Shown here in pieces: positions 21,159-50,739 of a DNA stretch of 64,000 bases. Numbering within the stretch: position 1 is the stretch's first letter; each line of letters starts with the position of its first letter. The stretch spans positions 248,001-312,000 of the forward strand of contig NZ_LT900217.1 of NCBI RefSeq assembly GCF_900199375.1, in the 5' to 3' direction. Position numbers and translations under genes: made by a program. Source of the DNA: Gordonibacter urolithinfaciens (GTDB taxonomy: Bacteria; Actinomycetota; Coriobacteriia; Coriobacteriales; Eggerthellaceae). Below the pieces are notes generated by a model. It worked only from the letters and a program-made list of their open reading frames with translations. It did not search any database and was not told the origin of the DNA.

Positions 21159-21221
21159 CCTACCTCCCCTCCCCGCTTCAGCGGGCCGATTCGGCGCCTG
21201 CGGACCACCCGCCGGCGCGCT

Positions 21222-21251
21222 AAACCCCGGGCCCTCGCCAGCCCGGGGTTT
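21222..21251 (+). terminator. Terminator of the caiD-like gene
   Basis: The 11-base stem AAACCCCGGGC (21222-21232) pairs with 21241-21251, with an 8-base loop and the partial T-run TTTTCATT, about 60 bases after the caiD stop. Confidence 0.8.
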
Positions 21252-21353
21252 TCATTCGGGGAGCATGCTTTCGCCCTCTCCCTTGGAGAGCGTGTTTTCG
21301 CCCTCTCCCCGAAGCCTCGCTTCCCTTACAGAACCCAGCCTGCCGCCGAATAT

Positions 21354-21513
21354 GCCCTTCCCTGCCAAAAAAGAGCCGGTTTGGCAATCCGGAAGCGTCG
21401 CTCGCCCCTCCTGCGCGGCATTCGACAGCCTATCGCCCCAGCTCACGTGAAACCGCTGTGCAAACCATGCTCTCGTCGATTGCCAAACCGGCTCTTTTTT
21501 GGCAGGGAAGGGC
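21354..21513. repeat. Long inverted repeat (35-base perfect arms, 90-base loop), copy 1
   Basis: The arms are 21354-21388 and 21479-21513. The inner part of each contains CAAAAAAGAGCCGGTTTG followed by GCAAT (left arm orientation). The same core recurs in a second inverted pair at 22716-22854. The T6 run inside the arm would follow the GC-rich stem on either strand, so the element could also stop transcription. The loop sequences of the two copies are unrelated. Upstream, TTTCGCCCTCTCCC occurs twice (about 21267 and 21295). Confidence 0.9.
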
Positions 21514-21558
21514 GAAAACCGCGACATGCGCGTCCGCATTTCGCGGCCCCCTCCGTCG

Positions 21559-21588
21559 ACCTTGCAGAGACCTTGCACGGATCTTGCA
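21559..21588 (+). repeat. Three direct repeats of ACCTTGCA at 11-base spacing
   Basis: ACCTTGCA starts at 21559 and 21570, and ATCTTGCA starts at 21581, exactly one helical turn apart. They lie about 120 bases upstream of the predicted nuclease gene and could be a binding site array. Confidence 0.5.
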
Positions 21589-21702
21589 GGAATCCAGCAG
21601 AATCCCGACGCAGATCCAGCGGAAATTCTGCTCATGGTAACACCTGGTCAACGTACTCTTCACATGCTGGCAACCGCACGACGGCCATGCTAGGTTGGCA
21701 GC

Positions 21703-22695
21703 ATGAGCGTATTTGTCAGCCACATATCGGCCCTCCAAGTATGGTCCTCCTTGAAGGAGGGGACGGCTGCGCTCGCCTTGCACGCCGACCCGCGCAAGAC
21801 CCCCTGCTGGCGGACGGGCCGACCCCTGCCCCAGGGCAAGGTCGCCCTGCGCGACATCCAAAGCATAGGCCGCGAGATCGCCAACTTGGCGTTTCCCCTG
21901 CACGTCCTCGTGCCCGACGCCGCGTACCGCAGCAGGAGCGAACTCGCGACCTGCCACGTGAGCTCATCGACCTATCCGCGGGGATCCTTCGTCCGCCTTG
22001 CAGAGGGCGTGCTCGTCAGCTCGCCAGAGCTCTGCTTCGTGCAGATGGCGACCAAGCTGCCGCCCATCGCGCTCGTCAGGCTCGGCTTCGAGCTTTGCGG
22101 CACGTACGGCATACCGACGGTCGCCCGTGCCGACTACGGCTTCGAGCGCCCTTTCACCACGGTTGCCCGCCTCGGCCGCTTCATCGAAGCGGCCGGCGAC
22201 ATGCCGGGAACCGTCAAAGCGCGCAAGGCGCTGCGCTTCATCGCCTCCGGCTCTGCCTCGCCCATGGAGACGTGCATGGTCATGCTGCTGTGCCTTCCTT
22301 TGCGCTTGGGCGGGTACAACCTCCCCAAACCGCAGATGAACCGCGAGGTCCGGCCCAAGCGGCGCGGCCGGCTGGCCCCCGGGGACCGGCAGTGCTTCTG
22401 CGACCTCGTCTGGCACGAGGCCCGCGTCGCCCTCGAATACGACAGCTCGGAGTTCCACGGGCCCAGGCAGGCAGCGGACGACGCGAGAAGGCGCAACGTC
22501 CTCCTGAACCGCGGGTTCACGGTGGTGTCGGTAACGTCGGGCAGCGCCCGGAACCTCATCGAACTCGACCGCATCGCGCAGATCCTGCGGACGCGGCTCG
22601 GGGTGCGCTTGCGCAGCGGGCAGCCTTCCTGGCGTGCGAGGCAGCACGTCTTGCATGGGATGCTCCTGGAAAACCCGCGCTTACCCCGCCCCTGA
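21703..22695 (+). CDS. Predicted nuclease-fold protein (DUF559/Vsr-like C-terminus)
   Basis: The 330-residue protein has no recognisable N-terminal family. Its C-terminal third matches the restriction-endonuclease-like pattern of DUF559 and Vsr proteins: strand VALEYDSSEFHG with acidic residues near 245, then helix ADDARRRNVLLNRGFTVVSVT with conserved Asp and Arg. This would be a metal-dependent DNA-cutting fold or a degenerate relative. The start is the ATG at 21703, with only a weak AGG upstream. The gene stands alone between two copies of a long inverted repeat (21354-21513 and 22716-22854), which suggests a mobile or recently inserted unit. It could instead be part of a defence or antitoxin family, and I see no partner gene. 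Confidence 0.6.
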   Translation: MSVFVSHISALQVWSSLKEGTAALALHADPRKTPCWRTGRPLPQGKVALRDIQSIGREIANLAFPLHVLVPDAAYRSRSELATCHVSSSTYPRGSFVRLAEGVLVSSPELCFVQMATKLPPIALVRLGFELCGTYGIPTVARADYGFERPFTTVARLGRFIEAAGDMPGTVKARKALRFIASGSASPMETCMVMLLCLPLRLGGYNLPKPQMNREVRPKRRGRLAPGDRQCFCDLVWHEARVALEYDSSEFHGPRQAADDARRRNVLLNRGFTVVSVTSGSARNLIELDRIAQILRTRLGVRLRSGQPSWRARQHVLHGMLLENPRLPRP

Positions 22696-22715
22696 CGTTG
22701 AAAAGGCCTTCGACT

Positions 22716-22854
22716 GTCAAAAAAGAGCCGGTTTGGCAATCGTCAAAATGCTTTGCTGAATTCAGAGGGAAAGCGACCAGGCTTTTCTCGAGCAGAAGGC
22801 CGAAGCGAAGCGTCTGGGCCATCCTGCAGATTGCCAAACCGGCTCTTTTTTGAC
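22716..22854. repeat. Long inverted repeat (26-base perfect arms, 87-base loop), copy 2
   Basis: The arms are 22716-22741 and 22829-22854. They share the core CAAAAAAGAGCCGGTTTG and GCAAT with the copy at 21354-21513; the outer arm ends and the loop differ. It lies in the 330-base space between the predicted nuclease gene and the convergent MFS gene. The rest of that space (22855-23025) is GC-rich with no gene that I can support. Confidence 0.9.
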
Positions 22855-23025
22855 CGTTGGACGCGAAAAAGGGGGCAGGCGCATGCGAGCCAGGCGGCCC
22901 GCGCCCATCGGGCAGGGATGTGGGGGCGAGCCGGGAGTGCGGGCGAGCTGGAAGACCGAGGCCATCCCGGCGGGCGCTTCCGCCTGGCCTCGGGGCCCGG
23001 GATGACCGTGCGCGGGCGCTTTGCC

Positions 23026-25423: not shown

Positions 25424-25532
25424 GCGGGTGGGACAGGGGGGGGGTGAGACAGGGGGACGGTTCTCTTGTCCCACTGAATTCGCGGGACAAGAGAACCGTC
25501 CCCCTGTCTCACCCCCCCCCTGTCCCACCCGC
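25424..25532. repeat. REP-like palindrome with 49-base perfect arms
   Basis: The arms are 25424-25472 and 25484-25532, with an 11-base loop. The arm contains GGGACAGG, a run of nine G, GAGACAGGGGGACGG and TTCTCTTGTCCC. This resembles the palindromes that many bacteria carry with REP-associated tyrosine transposases. It sits between the MaoC gene and caiC, inside an apparent operon. No transposase is in the window. Confidence 0.9.
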
Positions 25533-50636: not shown

Positions 50637-50739
50637 GGGCGTGACAGAGGGACGGGGATAATGTCTCATTCCCCCTGCGCTTGCAGCAATCGAGGGACTT
50701 CGGAGAATGAGACATTATCCCCGTCCCTCTGTCACGCCC
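50637..50739. repeat. REP-like palindrome with 35-base perfect arms
   Basis: The arms are 50637-50671 and 50705-50739, with a 33-base loop. The arm includes GTGACAGAGGGACGGGGATA and ATGTCTCATTC. In layout and G-rich content it resembles the palindrome at 25424-25532, but the sequence differs. It lies between the GntP and NCS1 genes. Confidence 0.9.

Follow-up and report, generated by a model that had tools for sequence, protein, structure and literature searches.

The nuclease gene and the palindromic elements described here probably form a single system, REPtron-like but not RAYT/REP, a reading that includes the proposed binding of the arms, their cleavage and their spread. The gene lies between two such elements in a 64,000-nucleotide stretch of Gordonibacter urolithinfaciens DNA (hereafter the window), all of it within one 3.29 Mb contig of a genome of Gordonibacter type (G000); G. 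pamelaeae (G002) belongs to the same genus. Comparison of loci and element copies shows that each nuclease lineage has arms of its own, common to flanking and solitary elements, and that the loops drift except for a phased central motif.

Two inverted repeats and the gene between them

The initial annotation of this region had described two inverted repeats with a common arm core and unrelated loops of about 90 bases, and this description proved exact. The arms of the first element (e1) are 36 bp long and completely complementary around a loop of 88, those of the second (e2) are near-perfect around a loop of 87, and CAAAAAAGAGCCGGTTTGGCAATC is common to the arms of both. The two loops are 0.61 identical in a global alignment, compared with 0.50 for shuffled loops. 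No inverted repeat this large was found in shuffled sequence of equal composition. The sole open reading frame between e1 and e2 has 330 codons (Table 1). Beyond what had been annotated, both loops contain a CCAGGTC-like motif and loop lengths are quantised.

Table 1. Features of the two elements and the intervening gene (window positions).
Feature	Position	Strand	Remarks
e1 left arm	21354..21389	+	conserved core from 21366; weaker complementarity reaches outward to 21338
e1 central motif CCAGCT(CACG)	21438..21443	+	left arm 48 bp away, right arm 40 bp (motif start to arm)
e1 right arm	21478..21513	+	
Predicted EDxHD/Vsr-like nuclease gene, 330 aa	21703..22695	+	novel N-terminal ~200 aa and C-terminal nuclease
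e2 arm, with the sequence of the e1 arms	22713..22741	-	
e2 central motif AAAGCCTGGTCGC (minus-strand reading)	22776..22781	-	arms 47 bp and 40 bp away
e2 other arm	22829..22857	-	

Directly after the enoyl-CoA hydratase gene, window positions 21170–21256 gave a weak Rfam match to anti-hemB (25.7 bits, below the cut-off), which probably represents the terminator hairpin of that gene.

Arms are tied to the nuclease lineage

A model-free scan around nuclease loci (arms with at least 20 of 24 complementary bases, spacer of 60–130) identified an element no more than 700 nt from the nuclease in 48 of the 62 homologous loci of the order Coriobacteriales, a set that counts one locus twice (L082/L195). 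Elements were present on both sides in 18 loci, and 14 had none at the threshold used. Twenty random 3.3 kb regions (66 kb) contained one such repeat. These regions are mostly coding and thus a lenient control, and the genome-wide rate agrees, with 0.040 such repeats per kb over 400 kb of the window genome, true elements included. Outside the order, a flanking element was found for one of nine DUF559-type homologs.

Elements at the same locus share 17.7 of 20 arm positions, compared with 10.7 of 20 between loci, and their loops are nearly unrelated (0.65 versus 0.50 for shuffled loops). Among nuclease pairs of at least 70% identity, the arms match at 17.9 of 20 positions versus about 10.6, with loops near background. 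The Mantel correlation between nucleases and arms is 0.30, a value reached in 0 of 2000 permutations. This signal does not distinguish the N-terminal from the C-terminal domain as the arm-binding part, nor does it single out the N-terminal domain as the only source of specificity. Another nuclease of G000 has a second arm type beside it; this type is also dispersed as pairs in G000 and G002, and in G000 both arm types occur as solitary pairs and flank a resident nuclease. In G007 and in G047 likewise, a nuclease has one of the dispersed elements of an arm family next to it. Taken as sequence comparisons, these results make it well supported that each nuclease would recognise its own cognate arms.

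Two nuclease copies of G000 appear degraded. The nuclease of the second arm type (L227, G000:C1:2806300-2809300) is apparently broken, with profile matches 3-202 and 190-320 in separate frames, and its flanking and dispersed elements persist despite this. The other copy (L226, G000:C1:1035847-1036476) is decayed, retains only profile positions 109-318 with one TGA, and has no adjoining element at the threshold used.

The elements share several properties with MITEs and insertion sequences, being short, non-coding, intergenic and present in many copies, with terminal inverted arms and a protein-coding relative in the same genome. We consider it very improbable that they are MITE-like, served by an unrelated transposase, and that the nuclease often just hitchhikes or lies next to them, since the arms vary together with the nuclease to which they are specific. 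Y1/HUH transposase genes (PF01797) are absent from three element-rich genomes, G097, G098 and G047, each with 11–20 element matches, and no tyrosine recombinase match was found beside the elements found in G000. Nor were arms shared with any insertion sequence with a known transposase; the nuclease is the only gene class found to be linked by the arms. The system further differs from MITEs and insertion sequences in having no known transposase class, and in that the arms lie inside the nuclease unit rather than at its ends. No target duplication was seen at the element ends, where the intergenic DNA differs as a whole between relatives.

Element anatomy and helical phasing

Comparison of 80 element copies defined an element as two inverted arms of 25–36 bp (typically about 25 bp) around a loop of 77–121 bp, and nearly every loop contains one off-centre asymmetric motif, (AAA/TTT)NCCCAGGTCGC. 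At the arm centre, identity is 0.79–0.87 within a copy versus about 0.44 between copies, and the inner edge of the arm match is sharp. Loop lengths cluster at 75–79, 85–89, 93–100, 107–110 and 121. Measured from a fixed arm point, the motif lies 37–39, 49–51, 59–62 or 72 bp from one arm and 33–34, 42–45, 53–55 or 67 bp from the other. The best periods of these distances are 10.8 and 10.4 bp (Rayleigh R 0.92 and 0.82, respectively); the corresponding p values of ~1e-16 and ~1e-13 ignore the kinship of the copies, but the absence of intermediate lengths is obvious from the tabulated values. Other arm types show the same 10.5–11 bp steps. Motif-arm distances in helical steps argue for double-stranded DNA bound by protein and not simply for a hairpin.

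Paired bidirectional terminators had been suggested in the initial annotation, and strong hairpins are indeed predicted, with an A-run, GC stem and T-run on both strands. The divergent intergenic positions and the helical phasing disfavour this suggestion: e3 and e6 lie in divergent gaps, upstream of both genes, and loops of 77–121 that step by the DNA helical turn are unexpected for a terminator. The arms are also specific to the nearby nuclease, and no Rfam family matched at gathering score, which makes bidirectional intrinsic terminators or structured RNAs an extremely improbable account of the elements.

Two further candidates were rejected. Conserved half-sites around a variable centre that matches within a copy led us to consider a switch inverted by a tyrosine recombinase; loop orientation relative to the flanks was the same in nine ortholog pairs (by eye), and no integrase was found near the G000 elements. 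The two hairpins are also not the transposon ends of a simple selfish unit, since the relative orientation of flanking elements is not fixed; solitary elements exist as well.

The nuclease is predicted to carry an EDxHD/Vsr-type active site

The gene between the elements had been annotated as DUF559/Vsr-like. Its predicted C-terminal fold and invariant residues bear out the Vsr/EDxHD part, and the DUF559/MTES_1575 part corresponds to weak Pfam matches of the 330-residue product to its C-terminal half (E 0.05 and 0.006, both below the cut-off). A Pfam search of 55 homologs pointed to MTES_1575/DUF559 and detected no Y1 domain (PF01797). Residues S186, E189, G203, G204, N213, D234, E245, Y246 and H252 are invariant in these homologs, and D260 is conserved at 97%; the predicted Vsr-like fold contains the catalytic E, D, H and D residues. 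The predicted structure has a mean pLDDT of 88.5 and a pTM of 0.89. In a fold comparison, the C-terminal part of the model matches I-Bth0305I (probability 0.92, E 0.17) and also the Vsr-like enzymes AbaSI and PvuRts1I, and a profile match to PDB 3r3p was obtained (E 0.003). The fold matches are not significant but agree with the invariant residues, which is suggestive of an EDxHD/Vsr-type nuclease. None of the fold matches listed gives convincing coverage of the N-terminal 200 residues.

Multi-copy homologs of the nuclease occur across the order (40 of 60 relatives), and in the sample searched, full-length homologs were found only inside Coriobacteriales. A plasmid search matched one Collinsella replicon. 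A role in defence or addiction, in which the nuclease would attack foreign DNA or act as a toxin and the elements would serve as self-marks, decoys or autoregulatory sites, agrees with this patchy distribution, with the resemblance of the catalytic domain to the restriction enzymes AbaSI and PvuRts1I, and with matches of 10 of the 55 homologs to the PADLOC mREase_II model. Such a role is improbable: the elements enclose no partner gene (antitoxin or methylase), the phage records searched contain no counterpart of the nuclease, and the dispersed cognate elements would be left unexplained.

Copies in Gordonibacter and its relatives

The first arm core occurs in 11 elements of the window genome by pattern and in about 15 by a covariance model, itself built from 15 copies. 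Only two of them adjoin the nuclease, and the remainder have unrelated genes on either side and occupy tandem, convergent and divergent gaps. Since most copies are isolated, this arm core taken alone looks unlinked to the nuclease, and the link would have failed the refuting test set in the initial annotation; it holds order-wide across arm types. The covariance model matched in 44 of 138 genomes of the family, representing 22 of 48 genera. Many elements of the first arm type are present in G. pamelaeae (G002, only 82% complete), which has no close homolog of the window nuclease; like the 14 loci lacking an element, this counts against the favoured reading.

Paralogous loops in G000 have a mean identity of 0.57 and a maximum of 0.69, and the arms are 0.88 identical. 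These values indicate that the copies are old, that the arms have been kept and that there was no recent burst of copying. Orthologous solitary elements, found at the same places in related species, have loops of 0.78–1.00 and arms of 0.96–1.00 identity. Two element pairs are more conserved than the other orthologous copies, being letter-for-letter identical between species over 135–147 bp (G000:C1:1856354-1856500 with G002:C1:2651310-2651456, and G000:C1:87183-87317 with G118:C34:120744-120878).

The retention of solitary elements at the same places across related species, with drifting loops and conserved arms, is one of three observations that speak for a domesticated regulator or chromosome organiser. 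The nuclease would then be mainly a DNA-binding, looping protein that controls its own gene, with elements on either side, and the genes beside solitary elements, and movement would be ancestral only. The phased tripartite sites do resemble looped operators, and one gap carries different arm types in four species, as if position mattered. We nevertheless regard this as rather unlikely, because the active site is invariant in 55 of 55 homologs, which is unexpected for a pure regulator, solitary elements have unrelated genes as neighbours, in all orientations, and some close relatives have no first-arm-type match at all.

Exchange, turnover and possible movement

The block comprising e1, the nuclease gene and e2 is 91–97% identical to its counterpart in the An230 record, which GTDB places in another genus, compared with about 73% for the adjacent MFS gene. 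Three genomes of the window's genus (G001, G003 and G004) have no nuclease at that gap. The gap that holds e8 contains elements of differing arm type in G000, G001, G003 and G007, no element in G002, and measures only 26 bp in G004. In G007, an element of the L198 type occupies the ECH-MFS gap. Around e11, about 453 bp that include other repeat-like DNA are absent from G002 (L186, G002:C1:495800-497600, compared with L038), with flanks about 93% identical.

Neither a clean empty site nor a target duplication was found among relatives at the e11, e8 and ECH-MFS gaps; relatives differ over the whole intergenic stretch beside the elements, and contents vary at the same gap. These comparisons show exchange and turnover but give no mechanism. 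The mobile or selfish unit proposed in the initial annotation comes close to our preferred reading and gains from the strong arm-nuclease link; the old age of the paralogous copies and the lack of a clean empty site weigh against it.

Comparison with known systems and proposed mechanism

In a REPtron (RAYT/TnpA-REP), a single nuclease gene lies beside its cognate palindromes. Further copies are scattered through intergenic DNA, every class belongs to one gene, palindromes are paired in inverted orientation across linkers that vary, and the enzyme is proposed to be a domesticated mobilising nuclease (PMC8266576). The system described here resembles it in these respects, and its cognate palindromes both flank the gene and are dispersed in the genome. 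It differs in its enzyme, predicted to be an EDxHD/Vsr-like hydrolytic nuclease, whereas RAYT is an HUH tyrosine transposase. It also differs in its elements, which have two 25–36 bp arms, a phased 77–121 bp loop and a motif of their own, whereas a REP is a hairpin of 20–50 nt that follows GTAG or a similar tetranucleotide; no GTAG conservation was seen at the arms in our alignments. The phasing here argues for recognition of double-stranded rather than single-stranded DNA. Identity with RAYT/REP was rejected: neither the 55 homologs nor the element-rich genomes named above contain Y1, and the element structure does not fit.

The catalytic fold and residue pattern of the nuclease are those of I-Bth0305I, an EDxHD homing endonuclease (PDB 3r3p), insofar as the suggestive fold match holds. 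The nuclease differs from it in lying outside an intron, in its absence from the phage records searched, in its N-terminal part, and in its flanking and dispersed palindromes. From DUF559/MTES_1575, which it resembles weakly, it is set apart by a full-length family confined to the order in the sample searched and by the absence of flanking elements from eight of nine DUF559-type homologs outside it.

In the REPtron-like reading that we favour, a dimer or tetramer of the nuclease would bind both of its own arms as double-stranded DNA, as the co-variation of arms and nuclease strongly implies. The DNA between the arms would be looped in phase, as the helical phasing suggests, so that the EDxHD active site would reach the CCAGGTC motif that the loops have in common and nick or cut there. 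I-Bth0305I is reported to dimerise on a nearly 60 bp target (PMC3943268), and a long target of several parts is therefore plausible here. We infer that cleavage would occur at the central motif and that nuclease activity would spread or maintain the elements. This activity may let an element be copied or inserted at other intergenic sites, in a transposase-like or homing-like manner as proposed for RAYT and REP, and may also transfer the nuclease, together with both its elements, from one genome to another. Most copies in present genomes are old and have been maintained, so partial domestication of the system is possible.

Novelty and significance

No description of such a system was found in the mainly open-access literature searched on DUF559, EDxHD, REPtrons, Eggerthella and repeats, and this nuclease-palindrome system of gut Coriobacteriales is apparently undescribed. 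Every known family tested fails a defining feature, either enzyme class or element structure, though the system is REPtron-like in its working. A further reading is possible, though we stop short of calling it likely: the phased, double-stranded, tripartite elements would be mobilised by an EDxHD/Vsr-like hydrolytic nuclease and would constitute a new class of mobile element, their arms specific to the lineage and the central motif they share being the cleavage site. To our knowledge, this enzyme class is not known as a transposase. If the nuclease does mobilise the elements, the REPtron arrangement would have been reached a second time, independently. A large, multi-copy family of gut-bacterial nucleases, assigned at best to DUF559 and without known function, is now tied to a defined, lineage-specific DNA substrate, which makes its biochemistry directly testable. 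Paired arms and nucleases also form a natural set from which a DNA-recognition code could be learned.

The 400 kb census also identified a second kind of repeated palindrome, with a spacer of 55–61, the sequence GGGGCG(T/A)GACA(G/C)GGGGACGGGGAT... and no CCAGGTC motif. Window positions 25424–25532 and 50637–50739 are candidate members. Palindromes of this kind lie at positions 2478025, 2639046, 2721984, 2726200 and 2752383 of G000.
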